The notes beneath the pieces are model-generated. The model worked only from the letters and a program-made list of their open reading frames with translations. It ran no database searches and was not told the DNA's origin. Shown here in pieces: positions 902-49,170 of a DNA stretch of 64,000 nt (position 1 is the first letter of the stretch; each line of letters begins with the position of its first letter). The DNA is from Polyangiaceae bacterium (GTDB lineage Bacteria; Myxococcota_A; Polyangia; Polyangiales; Polyangiaceae), in contig JAHBVY010000005.1 in NCBI GenBank assembly GCA_019637265.1, forward strand, positions 1 through 64,000. The letters are read 5' to 3'. The position numbers and the translations under genes are program-made.

Positions 902-3222
902 AGCTGACGCGCATCACCAAGTTGAAGTACCGCGTGTTCCGCGACTTCGTGTGGCCGAGCGAGCTGCACTCGTTCGCGCAATTCAACGTCGTCTACGGCT
1001 GGAACGGCTGCGGAAAGACGACGCTATCGTCGCTGCTCTCGCTCGTCGAGAAGAAGACCGCGCTCCCCAAAGAGGAGGGCGAGCTGGAGCTGGAGTTCAA
1101 CGGGACGACGAAGGTCACCGGCGCGAAGCTGGCGACCAAGCCCGTGCCCCAGGTGCGCGTGTTCAACCGCGACTTCATCAACTCCACCTTGCAGTCGGCA
1201 GGTGGCATCGCACCCATCTACTTCCTCGGTGAGGATAGCGTCGAGAAGCAGAAGGAAGTCGACCAGCTCAAGAGGGACCTCGATTCGGTGAACGACGAGG
1301 TGATGAACGCGCAAAACAAAGAGACCAAGGCGGCGAATGCGCTAGACGAGTTCTGCAAAGACAAGGCGAAGCTCATCAAGGAGCTGCTGACCGGCGCGAA
1401 CAGCCAGACCTACAACAACTACAACAAGGCGAAGTTCAAGGAGGCTACTGAGAGACTGAACGCCGAGAGCGCCACTGTGGCGATGCTTACGGACGAACAG
1501 AAGACATCGCTCCGCAGCCAGAAGGACGCGCAACCCAAGGCGAACATCGAGAAGGTCGCCGAGCCGTCCGTGGACATCGCCACGCTCACGAGGGAGGTGG
1601 ACGCCCTCGTCGCCCGCTCCGTCGTCGCACAGACGCTCGACGAGTTGACTTCGCACGCGAAACTCGCCGCGTGGGTGCAGCAAGGCCTCGCCCTGCACTC
1701 AGGCGAGCACGCCTCGGACACCTGCCGCTTCTGCCTGCAGCCCCTCGATGCGGCCCGCCGCGCGGCGCTTGAGGCGCACTTCAACGACGCCTTCGCCAGC
1801 TTCCAGAAGGACGTGGGGGCGCTGCTCGCGAAGCTGAACGCGGCCAAGCGCAGCGCGGGTTCGTTGACGCTGCCCGACGCCTCACGCTTCTACGAGGCGC
1901 TCACCGCCGAGGTGACTGCAGCCAGCGCCCAGGTGACGACCGCGCGCTCCGAGACCGAGAGCGCGCTCGACGCGCTCATCGCCCAGGTCGAAGCCAAGCG
2001 CGATAACCCTTTCGCGCCCGCTGCGTCGGTGCCTCCGGCTGCCTCGATGCCCGCCGCGCTCACCGCTGTCGTCGCAGCACTCAACGCGCTCATCGAGCGA
2101 CACAACCAGACCTCCGCGCAGTTCAAGGCGTCGGTGGACGAGGCATGCAAGAAGCTCGAAGCCTCCTACCTCGCCGAGGCGCATGCCGAGTTCCTTCAGC
2201 TCTCCGGGGCGGTAACCACTGCCAACAGCGCGCTTGAGACCATCAAGAGCAAGCCCGCAGGCATCCAGGCGCAGATCTCCGAGTTGGAGCGCGCCATCCT
2301 CGAGCATCGCCGCCCCGCTGACGAGTTGACCGAAGAGCTGCGCGCCTACCTTGGCCGCGACGAGCTGCGCTTCGAGGTGAAGGGCAACGGCTACGCACTC
2401 ACGCGCAACGGCCAACCCGTCGCGCACCTGAGCGAGGGCGAACGCACCGCCATCTCGTTCCTCTATTTTCTCAAGTCCCTGCAGGACAAGACCTTCGACA
2501 TGGCGAAGGGGATCGTCGTCATCGACGACCCCGTGTCGAGCCTCGACGCCAATGCCCTGTTCTCGGCCTTCGGCTATATGAAGGAGCGCACCAAGCAGGC
2601 CGGGCAGCTCTTCATCTTCACGCACAGCTTCCCGTTCTTCAGGCTGGTGAGGAACTGGTTCCATCACCTCCCGAAGCAGCGGAGTCCGCAGGTTGACCGG
2701 CGCCTCGGTCGCTTCTTCTTGCTGCGTCCGCGTCGCCATACCGACGGCTCACGCACCAGCCACCTCGGTCCGCTCGACCCGCTGCTCCAAGAGCACGAAT
2801 CCGAGTACCAGTACCTCTTCAAGCGCGTCTACGATGAGGCCCACCGGACCGATATCGTCAGCTTGGAGCATCACTACGGGCTCCCCAACGTCGCGCGTCG
2901 TCTCATCGAGGCGTTCCTCGCGTTCCGCTTCCCGGAGATGAGCGGCGACCTCGGACCGCGGCTGGATCGCGTCGTGGACACCTACAACTATGACACGGCC
3001 AAGAAGACGCGCGTCCTGCGCCTACTCAACACCTACTCGCACGCTGGTGCCATCGCTGACCCCGAGCACGATCTCTCACTGCTCGCTGAGACGCAGCCAG
3101 TTCTGCTCGACGTCCTCGAGTTGATGAAGACGGTCGACAAAGACCACTACGATGGCTTGGAGAAGCTGGTCGCGCCGCCGTTGGGTGTCCTTGCCGCCGG
3201 CTCGTCCAATGGTGTCGAGTGA
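898..3222 (+). CDS. AAA_13 ATPase with zinc-hook motif, RloC/PrrC-like putative anticodon nuclease
   Basis: A 774-residue SMC/ABC-type ATPase. Seen: Walker A GWNGCGKT at residues 34-41, a long helical coiled-coil region, a mid-protein CxxC (C276, C279) where RloC carries its Rad50-like zinc hook, an ABC signature-like LSEGERTAISF, and a Walker B VIDDPVSSLDAN. The C-terminal part has R667-x3-E671 followed by H715, resembling the Arg-Glu-His triad reported for PrrC/RloC anticodon nucleases. Such proteins are often encoded inside type I R-M loci and are thought to act when restriction is disturbed. The gene overlaps hsdS by 4 bases. The ATPase family is clear; tRNA cleavage is inference from the motif and context. 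It could instead be a non-nuclease AAA_13 defence ATPase. Confidence 0.82.
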   Translation: MKLTRITKLKYRVFRDFVWPSELHSFAQFNVVYGWNGCGKTTLSSLLSLVEKKTALPKEEGELELEFNGTTKVTGAKLATKPVPQVRVFNRDFINSTLQSAGGIAPIYFLGEDSVEKQKEVDQLKRDLDSVNDEVMNAQNKETKAANALDEFCKDKAKLIKELLTGANSQTYNNYNKAKFKEATERLNAESATVAMLTDEQKTSLRSQKDAQPKANIEKVAEPSVDIATLTREVDALVARSVVAQTLDELTSHAKLAAWVQQGLALHSGEHASDTCRFCLQPLDAARRAALEAHFNDAFASFQKDVGALLAKLNAAKRSAGSLTLPDASRFYEALTAEVTAASAQVTTARSETESALDALIAQVEAKRDNPFAPAASVPPAASMPAALTAVVAALNALIERHNQTSAQFKASVDEACKKLEASYLAEAHAEFLQLSGAVTTANSALETIKSKPAGIQAQISELERAILEHRRPADELTEELRAYLGRDELRFEVKGNGYALTRNGQPVAHLSEGERTAISFLYFLKSLQDKTFDMAKGIVVIDDPVSSLDANALFSAFGYMKERTKQAGQLFIFTHSFPFFRLVRNWFHHLPKQRSPQVDRRLGRFFLLRPRRHTDGSRTSHLGPLDPLLQEHESEYQYLFKRVYDEAHRTDIVSLEHHYGLPNVARRLIEAFLAFRFPEMSGDLGPRLDRVVDTYNYDTAKKTRVLRLLNTYSHAGAIADPEHDLSLLAETQPVLLDVLELMKTVDKDHYDGLEKLVAPPLGVLAAGSSNGVE

Positions 3223-3239
3223 ATGGTGGAGTTTCCCTC

Positions 3240-4697
3240 ATGACCACCAAACGCAAGCAGGGCGAGACTCACCTCGTCGAGTGGAAGGAGTCATGGCGTG
3301 ACGAGTACCTGAGGTGGCTTTGCGGCTTCGCCAACGCCGACGGCGGCACGCTCATCATCGGCATGAGCGACAAGGGCGAGCCCGTGGGCGCGCGGGACGC
3401 AGACCGGTTGCTCGTCGATCTGCCGAACAAGATCCGCGACACGCTGGGCCTCGTGGTGCCGGTGAGGAGCGTCACCAAGAAGGGCAAGTCGCTCGTCAAG
3501 ATCGACGTCGCCCCCTCACTGCCACCCATCAGCTACAAGGGCGAGTACCACGTCCGCTCCGGCAGCACGAAGCAGCAGCTCACCGGCAACGCGCTCTCGA
3601 CGTTCTTGCTCCGCAAGTTCGGGCGCACGTGGGACGGGTCGCCCGTGCCCCATGTGACGGTCAAGAACCTGAGCGCGGAGGCGTTCAAGCGGTTCAAGGC
3701 CCACGCGCGTGACAGCGACCGCATGCCGCCGGGCTCGTTGACGGCGAGCCGCGCCGAGCTCATCGAGCGACTCCGGTTGACCGAGACGGGCATGCTCAAG
3801 CGCGCGGCCTTGCTGCTCTTCCACGCTGATCCAGAGCGCTGGGTCACCGGAGCCTGGGTAAAGATCGGCATGTTCCGAGGGGGCGCCGATCTCGCGTTCC
3901 ATGACGAGGTCCACGGGGACCTGTTCACCCAGATGGACAAGACCCTCGAGCTGCTCCACACGAAATACATGGTGGCGTGGATCAGCTACCGAGGTGTCGC
4001 GCGACGCGAGACCTTCCCTGTACCTCGCGACGCCCTACGCGAGGCGCTGCTGAACGCTCTCATCCACAAGGACTACAGCTCAGGGAACCCGATCCAGATC
4101 CGCGTCGAGACTGACAGCCTCTCGATCTTCAACTCCGGTCCGTTGCCGCCCTCATGGACGGTCGAGACCTTGCTCGGAAAGCACAGCTCGCAGCCGCACA
4201 ACCCCGACATCGCCAGCACCTTTTTCCGCACCGGGCTCATCGAGGCGTGGGGCCGTGGCTACGAGCGCATCGCCGAGTCGTGCCGTGAACAAGGCACACC
4301 CGAGCCCACGGTCGAGTCCGACGGCAACGGGGTTCGCATCCAGTGGGCGTGGGTGAACCCGGCGTCCGACGCCGATCGAATTCGAGCGCGCGTCGAGGGA
4401 CGGGTACAAGTCACCGACCAAGTCGCAGGACAAGTCGCAGGACAAGTCGCAGGACAAGTCGCAGGACAAATCGAGCGCCTCCTTGCCGTGATGGTTGCAG
4501 AGATGCCGCGTGATGAGATGCAGGTGGCGCTCGGGCTCACCGGACGCGCAAACTTCACCGTCCAGTACCTCAAACCCGCGCTCGACGCTGGGCTCATCGA
4601 GATGACCATCCCCGACAAGCCGAACAGCCGCTTGCAAAAGTACCGCATCACCGCTGCGGGCAAGACGTACCTCGCGACGAAGAAGGGGCCCCGATGA
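3240..4697 (+). CDS. Schlafen AlbA_2-domain protein with winged-helix C-terminus
   Basis: About 485 residues. The N-terminus ([17 protein letters not shown], then [19 protein letters not shown]) is the Schlafen AlbA_2 fold. The middle has a GHKL-like part ([33 protein letters not shown]) usual in RecG-like/AlbA_2 proteins. A short DQVAGQ repeat linker (about residues 394-409) precedes a helix-turn-helix tail. These proteins are common in R-M and defence islands; some Schlafen-type relatives act on nucleic acids, but the biochemical role here is unknown. Start ATG 3240 is chosen because GGAG lies 8 bases upstream. A GTG at 3219 overlapping the previous stop is the alternative. The stop overlaps hsdR by ATGA. 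Confidence 0.85.
4419..4466 (+). repeat. 12-bp tandem repeat, four exact copies, in AlbA_2 gene
   Basis: Unit CAAGTCGCAGGA repeats four times without change, flanked by degenerate copies (CAAGTCACCGAC before, CAAATCGAGCGC after). It encodes (QVAG)n between the catalytic part and the winged helix. Because the unit is a multiple of 3, copy-number slippage would change linker length without a frameshift. Confidence 0.95.
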
Positions 4698-42424: not shown

Positions 42425-43663
42425 ATGTGGGTAGGACTCGATCAGATCGCGACGGGGCAGTTTGGGGCGACGCGGCGGAGGCTGCGCGGCGCGCGAGTGG
42501 GGGTGCTGACCCACGCGGCGGCGACCGATCGACGCGGCTACTCCTGCCTCGAGACCCTGGATGAGCTGGGGGTGCACCCCCGGGTGGTGTTCGGGCCCGA
42601 GCATGGGCTGGACGGCGCCCTGCAAGCGCAGGAGGCGGTGCCCACGCCGGACGCGGAGGGCGACGACTGGACCCAGCGCTTCGTCAGCCTGTACGGCTCG
42701 AGCAAGGAGTCGCTCACCCCGACCCCGGAGCAGCTCGAGGGGCTCGACCTCTTGCTGATCGATCTGTGTGACGTCGGCAGCCGCTACTACACCTACGTGT
42801 GGACCGCGCTGCTCGCGGCGCGCGCCGCGAGCGCGCTCGGGATCCACACCTTGATCCTCGATCGCCCCAACCCCATCTCCGGCGATCCGCAGCGGGCCGA
42901 AGGCGCGCTCCAAGCGGAGGGCTTCCTCTCCTTCGTAGGGCTCGAGCCGCTCCCGATCCGCCACTGTCTTACCTTGGGGGAAATCGTCGCCCACTTCCTG
43001 CACCAAGGCGGCGCCGAGCTCGGGCCCGACGGCGCGCTCAGCATCGTGCCGACGCGCGGCTGGGAGCGGCTGCAGACGGCGCGCGCTTGGGGGCGTCCCT
43101 TCGTGCCGCCCTCCCCCAACATGCCTTCGCTCGAGACGGCGCTGGTGTACCCCGGCGGCTGCCTCTTGGAAGGGACCAACCTCTCCGAGGGGCGCGGCAC
43201 CACCCTGCCCTTCCTCACCGTGGGCGCGCCGTTCCTGGATGGAGAGGCGCTGGCCCGCGCCCTGCGCGACGCCGCGCTGCCGGGCGTGGTGGTGCGGCCC
43301 ACCAGCTTCAAGCCGAGCTTCGACAAGTTCGCCGGGGAGCTGTGCCGCGGGGTGATGCTGCACGTCACCGACGAGCGGCTCTTCCGCCCGGTGAGCACCT
43401 ACCTCACGCTCATCACCTTAGCGCAGCGCCAAGCGCCGGAGCAGTTTCAGTTCAGCACCGAGGCCTACGAGTTCGAGCGCGAGACGCCCGCCTTCGATCT
43501 GCTGACCGGCAGCACCGCCGCCCGAGAGGCGATCCTCGCCGGGGAGAGCCCTAGTCAGGTGTGCGAACGAGTAGCCCCCCAGGCCGTGCTGAGCGCCGAA
43601 GGCGCGCCCTGGGCCGACGCCGTCACAGCCATCGAAGCGCTGGCGCAGCGCGCCAGCGCCTGA
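42425..43663 (+). CDS. NamZ-like (DUF1343) exo-beta-N-acetylmuramidase
   Basis: 412 residues. VGVLTHAAATDRRG, FGPEHGLDGALQA, IDLCDVGSRYYTYVWT, LDRPNPISG and above all PPSPNMPSLETALVYPGGCL with EGTNLSEGRGTT are signatures of DUF1343, shown in NamZ to release N-acetylmuramic acid from muropeptide sugar ends. No signal peptide is evident, so it may act in the cytosol in cell-wall recycling, unlike secreted relatives. Start ATG 42425; a GGAG about 10 bases upstream is modest. Confidence 0.9.
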   Translation: MWVGLDQIATGQFGATRRRLRGARVGVLTHAAATDRRGYSCLETLDELGVHPRVVFGPEHGLDGALQAQEAVPTPDAEGDDWTQRFVSLYGSSKESLTPTPEQLEGLDLLLIDLCDVGSRYYTYVWTALLAARAASALGIHTLILDRPNPISGDPQRAEGALQAEGFLSFVGLEPLPIRHCLTLGEIVAHFLHQGGAELGPDGALSIVPTRGWERLQTARAWGRPFVPPSPNMPSLETALVYPGGCLLEGTNLSEGRGTTLPFLTVGAPFLDGEALARALRDAALPGVVVRPTSFKPSFDKFAGELCRGVMLHVTDERLFRPVSTYLTLITLAQRQAPEQFQFSTEAYEFERETPAFDLLTGSTAAREAILAGESPSQVCERVAPQAVLSAEGAPWADAVTAIEALAQRASA

Positions 43664-46527: not shown

Positions 46528-46751
46528 GGCGTGAGCCTACGCCTCCTGGTCTGTCAGAGCGACCGGAGCGCAATACGCACCCCCCCCGCTCTCTCGAGGA
46601 CCGTCGTGATCACAGCAGAGTTGTGCGCGGGCAAAGGATTTGAAACCATGCCACGGGGCGCCCCGTAGGGGCCCTGCGGGTGGCGTGGCGAGGGACGCGC
46701 GCGGCTCGCGGCCTCCAAGGCCGAATCCATAAACCAACAGGAGCGATACAC

Positions 46752-47000
46752 ATGAAGCTTGGAAACATTTTGGCGAGCACCGCTGCGGCGGGCCTGCTGC
46801 TCGGAACGGCGGTGGCCTGTGGTGGCAACGCGGCGCCCGCCGCCGCCCCGGAGCCTGGCGCCGCGGCTGGCGCCAAGGACTGCTGCAAGGGCCTGAACGA
46901 GTGCAAGGGCAAGGGCGGCTGCGCTGGCGACAGCCACGACTGCGCCGGCAAGAACGAGTGCAAGGCGGCGGGCGGCTGCAACGCCCACTGCCCCAAGTAG
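46752..47000 (+). CDS. bufA: Bufferin-type Cys-rich RiPP precursor
   Basis: 82 residues. An N-terminal export signal (ILASTAAAGLLLGTAVAC) is followed by an Ala/Pro linker and a core with eight cysteines (44, 45, 51, 57, 64, 70, 76, 80) in two related units: CKGLNECKGKGGC and CAGKNECKAAGGC. Such exported Cys-rich peptides sit beside DUF692 (MNIO) and DUF2063 genes and are modified at Cys to bind copper or other metals. Both partners follow here. AGGAG lies 8 bases before the ATG. A longer ATG form from 46680 is unlikely. Confidence 0.83.
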   Translation: MKLGNILASTAAAGLLLGTAVACGGNAAPAAAPEPGAAAGAKDCCKGLNECKGKGGCAGDSHDCAGKNECKAAGGCNAHCPK

Positions 47001-47157
47001 CCCACAGCACGGCCTAGCACACCGGCCGCCGGCGCCCGCGCGCTCGACGATGGGCGGCGCGAGCGCCGCGGCGGCCTGGTGTGTGTTGGCGAAGCCCTCT
47101 CTGCGAGACCTCCAGAGCGCCGCTCCAGATCTCGAGGGTGACCCACACTAGCGACGA

Positions 47158-47172
47158 GTCAGCCTAGCTGAC
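47158..47172. promoter_or_regulatory. Perfect dyad upstream of the MNIO gene
   Basis: GTCAGC-CTA-GCTGAC ends 7 bases before the ATG of the DUF692 gene. It could be an operator or a hairpin at the ribosome binding site; half-sites resemble those of the recA dyad. Confidence 0.4.
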
Positions 47173-47179
47173 TGACCCG

Positions 47180-48202
47180 ATGAACCAGGACCCAGCGCCG
47201 GACCCAACCCAAGAGCCCCGGGGCGCGCGCCTCGGCTGCCCCGACCTCGGCGTGGGCATCGGGCTGCGCGTGCCGCACTACCGGCAGATCTTGAGCGAGG
47301 CCCCGAAGGTCGATTTCTTCGAGGTCATCAGCGAGAACTTCATGGTGCCGGGCGGGCGGCCCCGTTACCACCTGGACGCCGTCCGCGAGCGCTACCACAT
47401 CGTGCAGCACGGGGTGTCGCTGGCCATCGGCTCACCCACGCCGCCGAGCAAAGACTACCTCCTGCGGCTGAAGGCGCTGGTGAGCGAGGTGAAGCCTCCC
47501 TGGGTGAGCGACCACTTCTGCTGGGGGCAAGCGCGCGGGATGCACCTGCACGACTTACTACCCATGCCGTACACCCGCGCCGCCATCGAGCGCGTGGTGG
47601 CGCGCGCGAAGGCGATTCAAGACACCCTGGGCGTGCGCCTCGCGCTCGAGAACACGTCAAGTTACCTGACTTACACCCAGAGTCAGATGACGGAGTGGGA
47701 GTTCATCAGCGAGGTGGCGGAGCGCGCGGACATCGGGCTGATGTTCGACGTGAACAACGTCTACGTGTCGGCCTACAATCACGGCTTCGACCCGTACGAG
47801 TTCATCCACCACGTGCCGCATCACCGCATCGTGCAGATCCACCTGGCGGGGCACACTCAGCGCGGCACCCACATCTTGGATACCCACAGCGCGGAGGTGG
47901 CGGACCCGGTGTGGGACCTCTACCGCGAGACGATCGGGCTGGCGGGCCCTGTCTCCACGCTGATTGAGTGGGACGATGACATCCCGCCGCTCGAGCGGGT
48001 GCTGGAGGAGGCCGAGCGCGCGCGCGCCGTGCGCGATGGCGCCGTGAGCGCGCGCGTGGAGCGGGCCGCGCGCGGGCTGAATCCAGCGCCGCGCTTCGTG
48101 CCGCGCGCGCCGCCGGAGCGCCGGGTCGCTCCAGCAGAGGCGCCCCACGGCGCGGGCTGGAGCGTCGGGGGGCCGCGTGAGCTCGCCTACGGTGAGCCGT
48201 GA
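47180..48202 (+). CDS. bufB: DUF692 multinuclear non-heme iron oxidase (MNIO), bufferin-modifying
   Basis: 340 residues. TIM-barrel DUF692 signatures: GIGLRVPHYRQIL, DFFEVISENFM, HGVSLAIG, VSDHFCWG, LALENTSSY, FDVNNVYVSAYNHGFDP, VQIHLAGH and LIEWDDDIP, carrying the His/Asp/Glu metal ligands. MNIOs convert peptide cysteines into thiooxazole-type groups using an iron cluster. The Ala/Arg-rich C-terminus is longer than usual. The next gene starts within its stop (GTGA), so they are coupled. Confidence 0.93.
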   Translation: MNQDPAPDPTQEPRGARLGCPDLGVGIGLRVPHYRQILSEAPKVDFFEVISENFMVPGGRPRYHLDAVRERYHIVQHGVSLAIGSPTPPSKDYLLRLKALVSEVKPPWVSDHFCWGQARGMHLHDLLPMPYTRAAIERVVARAKAIQDTLGVRLALENTSSYLTYTQSQMTEWEFISEVAERADIGLMFDVNNVYVSAYNHGFDPYEFIHHVPHHRIVQIHLAGHTQRGTHILDTHSAEVADPVWDLYRETIGLAGPVSTLIEWDDDIPPLERVLEEAERARAVRDGAVSARVERAARGLNPAPRFVPRAPPERRVAPAEAPHGAGWSVGGPRELAYGEP

Positions 48203-49170
48203 AGGGCGAGCAGCGCGTCGAATCGGGGGGCGCTGAATCGGGAGGCGCCGCGGGCCGCGCTGTTTCTACGCCGGAACACCAAGCGATCGAGGAGCACGAA
48301 GAGCGCGAGCTGCCGGTCAGCGACGCCGAGCGCGCCCAGCTCGACCAGCTCCAAGCCTGGGTGGCGGAGCGCTTGGTGTCGCCGCGCGCGCTGGAGCGCG
48401 ATCCGGCGGCCGTCCAGCGCGCGAGCGTCGAGCTCAGCGGCAGTGACCACCTCTCCCCCGTCGCCCAGCTCGAGATCTACCGTGAGCAGTTCTGGCTGCG
48501 GCACACCAGCGCCTTGTTGGAGGACTACCCCGCGCTGAGCGCCGTGCTGGGCCAGGCAGCGTGGGAGCGCCTGACGGAGGGCTACCTCGCGGCGCACCCT
48601 CCGGACAGCTTCACCCTGCGCGATCTCGGGCGCGCGCTGCCCGCCTATGTTGCGCGCTGTGAGTGGCTCCCGGAGCAGGCGTTGGCGGAGGATCTCGCGC
48701 GCCTCGAGTGGGCCTACGTGGAGCTGTTCGACGCCGCGCCCGGCGCGCCCGTCAGCCACGAGCGGCTCGCGGCGATCCCGGAGGGCGCCTGGCCCACGGC
48801 CAGGCTCGGCATCGAGTCGAGCCTGCAGCTCGTCTCCGCGCGGTACCCCGTCGCCGCGCTGCGCGTCGAGCTGATCGCGGATCCGGCGCGCGCCAACGCG
48901 CCGCTCCCAGCGCCCGCTGAAGAGCACCTGGTGCTCTATCGCCGCGGCCTCGACATGCACCGCGAGCCCTTGCCGGCCCTGGGGCTCGCGCTGCTCACCC
49001 AGCTCCGCGCGGGTGAGCCGCTCGGCGCCGCCTGCGACGCCCTGCTTCAGAGCGCGCTGGAGCGCGGGGCCAGCACCTCGGAGGCGGCCGCGAAGGAGCT
49101 CGAGGGCTCCCTCGGGGCGTGGTTTCAGCGCTGGGCGGCGCTCGGGTTCATCACCTCGGTCGAGGTGTGA
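48199..49170 (+). CDS. bufC: DUF2063 protein, MNIO partner (BufC-like)
   Basis: 323 residues. LEIYREQFWLRHTSALLEDYPAL, HPPDSFTLRDLGRALPAYV and LARLEWAYVELFDA are hallmarks of the DUF2063 'putative DNA-binding' family, which partners DUF692 enzymes and presents the precursor peptide. The C-terminal domain (WFQRWAALGFITSV) is typical. The GTG start overlaps the bufB stop. The first ~40 residues are a low-complexity extension. Confidence 0.9.
   Translation: MKGEQRVESGGAESGGAAGRAVSTPEHQAIEEHEERELPVSDAERAQLDQLQAWVAERLVSPRALERDPAAVQRASVELSGSDHLSPVAQLEIYREQFWLRHTSALLEDYPALSAVLGQAAWERLTEGYLAAHPPDSFTLRDLGRALPAYVARCEWLPEQALAEDLARLEWAYVELFDAAPGAPVSHERLAAIPEGAWPTARLGIESSLQLVSARYPVAALRVELIADPARANAPLPAPAEEHLVLYRRGLDMHREPLPALGLALLTQLRAGEPLGAACDALLQSALERGASTSEAAAKELEGSLGAWFQRWAALGFITSVEV

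Follow-up and report, generated by a model that had tools for sequence, protein, structure and literature searches.

The window, a 64,000-nucleotide stretch of a Polyangiaceae contig, carries a stand-alone three-gene operon at 46752-49170; on reading the sequence, the genes flanking it on both sides were found to lie on the opposite strand. The first gene, bufA (46752..47000, + strand), encodes an 82-aa precursor, a lipoprotein-type Buf2-like peptide, and is preceded by an AGGAG ribosome-binding site (46739..46743, +) that can be read directly. It is followed on the same strand by bufB (47180..48202), which encodes an MNIO (DUF692/PF05114) maturase and whose start codon is uncertain, and by bufC (48199..49170), which encodes a partner protein with DUF2063 and an RRE-type domain (PME-type 1). 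The stop codon of bufB and the start codon of bufC overlap in the sequence GTGA (48199-48202), and the order precursor, MNIO, DUF2063 protein is the gene order of Buf2 clusters (PMC12452194). A sequence-only reading of this DNA had placed an exported peptide upstream of DUF692 and DUF2063 genes overlapping by GTGA and had called the locus a bufferin-type RiPP cluster. All three genes and the overlap were found as it described them, and the cluster type is upheld by a BufB product above the curated cut-off, by the bufA-bufB-bufC order and by a Cys-rich, exported precursor whose similarity to BufA2 is weak yet significant. That reading overlooked the lipobox, the additional cysteines, the promoter element and the hairpin. 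No copper gene adjoins the operon and no DoxX gene lies within it. A phage or plasmid origin was rejected because no relatives were found among viral contigs or plasmids. Elsewhere in the window, bp 42425-43663 contain a gene for a NamZ-type exo-beta-N-acetylmuramidase (PF07075, PF20732).

The bufB product scores 358 bits against PF05114 and 347 bits against the NCBIfam BufB model NF050167, passing the curated cut-off of 310. Positions conserved across 59 aligned MNIOs include H77, D111, H112, E157, D190, N193, H221, D234, H236 and E263. Specifically, BufB N193, D234 and H236 align with the site-3 iron ligands N175, D242 and H244 of HvfB, replacement of which abolishes activity; by comparison with that study (PMC13419390), the MNIO iron-ligand positions are retained in BufB. 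The bufC product was identified as a DUF2063 protein with PF09836 (60.5 bits, cut-off 27.2). Its AlphaFold2 model (mean pLDDT 92) is most similar (probability 1.00) to TglI (8hi7) and NGO1945 (3dee), both of which are MNIO partners, and weakly matches the RRE protein TbiB1, as for the C-terminal RRE-type domain of PME-type 1 partners.

BufA begins with a signal peptide (46752..46820, +) in which, by direct reading, the sequence LLLGTAVA is followed by the predicted lipid-anchor cysteine, C23, a residue kept in at least 90% of the alignment. The Sec signal was recognized by inspection and pattern only, from a conserved hydrophobic segment and this lipobox, which was assigned with a simple pattern rather than a trained signal-peptide predictor. 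Judging from these features, BufA is probably anchored to the cell envelope. Its core, DCCKGLNECKGKGGCAGDSHDCAGKNECKAAGGCNAHCPK, contains a first unit, CC-KGLNEC-KGKGGC (46881..46922, +; C44, C45, C51 and C57), and a second unit, C-AGKNEC-KAAGGC (46941..46979, +; C64, C70 and C76). All four cysteines of the first and C64 and C70 of the second are invariant in 16 relatives, as is C80 of the C-terminal HCPK (46986..46997, +). The two-unit Cys core described earlier is therefore present, with units spanning C45-C57 and C64-C76, but three cysteines outside these units had been missed: C44 (which completes the CC at the head of the first unit), C80 and the lipobox C23. In total there are eight core cysteines, six in the two Cys-Lys units and two more; Buf2 precursors are recognized by 6 (or 12) (PMC12452194). 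A comparison of bufA with the copy from the same genus gave a dN of 0.19, a dS of 0.67 and a dN/dS ratio of 0.28, with 15, 11 and 31 substitutions at the three codon positions; by these values, BufA is under purifying selection.

BufA shares its Cys-Lys units, Sec signal and precursor-MNIO-DUF2063 order with the Buf2 bufferins (Buf_6/12Cys; NCBIfam BufA2), but differs from them in its eight core cysteines with CC and HCPK, in an operon without DoxX, and in two further respects. First, it matches the BufA2 model NF050166 with only 29 bits (E-value: 9e-7, profile positions 9-62 of 79), below the curated cut-off of 60. Second, the usual Buf2 tail GW...EC..KGG with its sixth cysteine, which is present in canonical relatives lacking the CC pair, is absent and replaced by GGCNAHCPK. 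Because it has neither the required score nor the tail, BufA is termed a Buf2-like variant and not a member of NCBIfam BufA2; its working principle is most likely the same.

The unit C-x3-N-x-C-K-x2-G-x-C is found beside MNIOs in one-pair, two-pair and longer precursors of Acidobacteriota, Verrucomicrobiota, Planctomycetota, Pseudomonadota (Gammaproteobacteria) and other phyla. It corresponds to the Buf2 family (PMC12452194) and to the "Cys-Lys" group (PMC13097082), while EGKCG marks the oxazolin/fontiphorin ("Lys-Cys") group and not the bufferins (PMC12452194, PMC13097082). It had been suggested from the sequence that, as NECK-x2-GGC differs from EGKCG, the product may differ. In this form the argument does not hold: since the unit is ordinary in Buf2 and EGKCG is the mark of another group, the contrast is, on the sequence patterns, one between two known groups and not a sign of a new product. 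NECK-x2-GGC is the standard Buf2 unit, and no new chemistry is needed to account for it. BufA has no EGKCG repeats of the kind found in oxazolin/HvfA precursors, and membership in the oxazolin, methanobactin and chryseobasin families was rejected based on model scores under the cut-offs (for example, 253 for the bufB product with the HvfB model, cut-off 360). The oxazolin and fontiphorin systems (HvfABC and FonABC) have in common with this operon an MNIO with a DUF2063 partner and, as predicted here, 5-thiooxazoles and copper binding, but the EGKCG repeats are their own. FonBC leaves NACKG-type substrates unprocessed (PMC13097082).

The lipobox also has precedents. Approximately 16% of Buf2 precursors are predicted lipoproteins (PMC12452194), and lipidation has been demonstrated for the MNIO substrates DybA and NedA (PMC12636315). 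These share with BufA, for which lipidation is predicted, a signal-peptidase-II lipobox, but DybA belongs to another MNIO subfamily and NedA has an EGKCG core, both unlike the operon described here. Given these predicted and demonstrated cases, the lipid anchor as such is not new. What is new is a predicted lipoprotein precursor of a Polyangia-only subtype with CC and HCPK, eight core cysteines and no usual tail.

Matches to BufA were found in 70 of 108 genomes of the same family (E ≤ 0.01), and a scan of approximately 85,000 species returned 304 relatives. In the best 80 of these 304 loci, an MNIO lies beside the peptide in 59 and a DUF2063 partner in 56, and the A-B-C order with the same peptide is seen in 56. 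In the Polyangia subtype, neither the CC preceding the first unit nor the cysteine close to the C-terminus (HCPK) varies, and the GW...EC..KGG tail is missing; by the simple pattern, 35 of 40 CC-flagged precursors also carry a lipobox. In the tree, the 27 MNIO sequences encoded with CC-type precursors cluster together (one change, support 89), suggesting that the type arose only once. Tentatively, the operon might represent a distinct Polyangia bufferin subclass, tail-less, lipid-anchored and with eight cysteines, that would hold copper at the membrane surface, use the invariant CC and HCPK cysteines as an additional site and belong to a sigmaF-NrsF regulon in trans. It is on balance unlikely that the extra cysteines (CC and HCPK) make the product unlike that of an ordinary Buf2 operon, either because a different set of cysteines is modified or because the pair is oxidized to a disulfide or provides a dithiol metal site. 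The invariance of C44 and C80 in the Polyangia subtype, the loss of the usual tail cysteine and the grouping of the subtype's MNIOs are consistent with such a product; however, neither the repeat unit nor the set of MNIO ligands departs from the ordinary, and in Buf1 it is the central cysteines that are modified, the outer ones being joined only in a disulfide (PMC12452194).

Upstream of bufA, at 46641..46667 (+) and 110 nt before the start codon, is an ECF-type promoter element, TGAAACC-N16-CGTA, that is conserved in the clade and is a probable sigmaF-type site. This two-box element was noticed by reading the upstream regions of relatives. Among the 14 members of the MNIO clade, GAAACC-N15/16-CGTA is exact in 9 and has at most one mismatch, counted over the ten fixed bases GAAACC/CGTA, in 13 (shuffle means 0 and 0.18); as the pattern was found on the same sequences, these counts are descriptive and not an independent test. 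The element occurs once in the window (0.02 expected), and the genome contains seven exact matches compared to four for the reversed pattern. With so few exact matches in this genome, the regulon rests on comparison between genomes. Two such comparisons were more independent of the clade count. In an exact-pattern search of eight relatives, the element was found before CC-type bufA genes, in four genomes before the precursor gene of another MNIO cluster, before an ECF sigma factor gene followed by NrsF and, as single cases, before genes for MsrA, DoxX, a peroxiredoxin and an MBL-fold protein; this search also gave matches of no evident meaning, and the reversed control was similarly frequent in some genomes. 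In the other comparison, sigmaF-NrsF operons were picked by the NrsF gene and the region upstream of the sigma factor gene was then scanned. All 11 readable cases had a match with at most two mismatches of 11 bases (0.64 expected), and 7 of them had one with at most one mismatch (0.03 expected), where expected values are from letter shuffles with spacers of 15 to 17 allowed; the best match had a spacer of 16 in every case.

The genome encodes a single NrsF (PF06532, G000:C15:321678-322271), beside an ECF sigma factor and on a different contig from bufABC. This NrsF has two conserved cysteines of the periplasmic type, in the contexts ALECGAL and ACPTTDSWH, and a copy of the element with two mismatches of 11 precedes the adjacent sigma factor gene. 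An ECF element is shared by the sigma operon and its putative targets, as in a sigmaF-NrsF regulon. In Caulobacter vibrioides, sigmaF recognizes GTAACC-N16-CGAA, is held by NrsF through two cysteines and controls two DUF692/DUF2063 operons, one of them away from sigF (PMC3511200). The two species have in common an ECF promoter upstream of DUF692 and DUF2063 genes, an NrsF with two conserved cysteines and a regulon that includes methionine sulfoxide repair and DoxX. They differ in that sigmaF-NrsF is here on another contig, the boxes are GAAACC/CGTA rather than GTAACC/CGAA (one base per box) and the precursor is not a DUF2282 protein. From this comparison, the bufABC element is probably a sigmaF-type site, read by a metal-stress sigma factor of the kind that acts in Caulobacter. 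According to a recent survey, sigma/NrsF genes are present in Buf1 clusters and absent from Buf2 clusters (PMC12452194); in contrast to that statement, Buf2-like precursors near NrsF genes were observed in five Polyangiaceae loci (L275-L279), two of which (L275 and L276) also have a sigma-like gene. These observations connect Buf2-like clusters with the sigmaF-NrsF stress pathway of Myxococcota in a way that can be tested, and the footprint of the element could serve to find more members of an envelope metal-stress response.

A copper-dependent CorE-type sigma factor was rejected as the regulator because no ECF-like protein found in the genome is CorE-like with a C-terminal Cys-rich domain, and a scan upstream of bufA found no sigma-70 promoter. 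A second clade, with MNIOs that group with Labilithrix, lacks the ECF-type element upstream of bufA (L113, L116, L119 and L123) and has another shared box, approximately GATACCTTTGTACGCT. An exact copy of the element also lies 157 nt before an RpoH-like sigma-70-family gene of the same genome (L180, 1501-1526; gene at 1684) and may be due to chance. In two genomes (L208 and L219) the element precedes the gene for a related lipoprotein that appears YceI-like by eye and has no Pfam match.

The gap between bufA and bufB contains a 28-bp hairpin without a T run (47017..47084, +; fold z -2.5 against dinucleotide shuffles). It was rejected as an ordinary terminator because it lacks the T run and was not called by a terminator scan. 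Most relatives have a long hairpin of different sequence in the same gap, followed in one case by T7 (L099), and several of these are no more stable than base composition predicts. The hairpin likely acts as an attenuator or in processing and so sets the precursor/enzyme ratio. It is common in RiPP operons for the precursor to be kept in excess of the enzymes.

Based on gene content and order, conservation, the lipobox and the ECF element common to the sigmaF-NrsF operon, we consider it likely that bufABC produces a membrane-tethered, Buf2-like copper-buffering RiPP that bears thiooxazoles and is induced through sigmaF. Metal or thiol stress would cause NrsF to let go of sigmaF, which would then transcribe bufABC, with the hairpin keeping the BufA precursor in excess. 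BufC would hold the precursor while BufB oxidizes cysteines in the C-x3-N-x-C-K-x2-GGC units to 5-thiooxazoles. Following export by Sec, signal peptidase II and acylation would anchor BufA via C23, and the thiooxazoles together with free thiols would sequester copper in the envelope. The operon would accordingly represent a copper-buffering system already known from bacteria, in a form specific to this lineage that defines a lipoprotein-type subtype.

The same kind of operon and CC-type peptide could instead act mainly against another thiophilic metal (Ag, Au, Cd, Hg or Cr) or against oxidants, with copper incidental. In Caulobacter, chromate and cadmium likewise elicit a sigmaF response (PMC3511200), gig operons are gold-responsive (PMC12452194) and, in relatives, the element precedes the MsrA, peroxiredoxin and DoxX genes mentioned above. 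We regard this as improbable, however, as those thiooxazole peptides from MNIO-DUF2063 pairs that have been examined to date are copper binders (PMC13097082, PMC12538549), and copper induces the Caulobacter sigmaF regulon while a sigF mutant is copper-sensitive (PMC8224329). It is very improbable that the MNIO has another substrate and that BufA, left unmodified, is a Cys-rich metal-binding lipoprotein: CC-type precursors without an MNIO within 5 kb do exist in some Polyangia (L098, L106-L109 and L111), but the genome's single CC-type precursor gene sits directly before bufB, and both the gene order and the grouping of MNIOs by precursor type are conserved.

The CC-type loci that lack an MNIO in the flanking sequence covered (up to 5 kb) also include L118, L130, L131 and L134. 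As several of these genomes carry a complete operon elsewhere, maturation of such precursors in trans is possible. The genome studied here contains a second MNIO cluster (L002; G000:C3:81005-84793), in which a lipoprotein with CGAGTC and PGKCGG motifs (721-1197) is encoded upstream of a 635-aa protein with fused MNIO and HvfC-like parts (1456-3363). The promoter element lies upstream of this cluster with one mismatch, and the four relatives noted above have exact copies.
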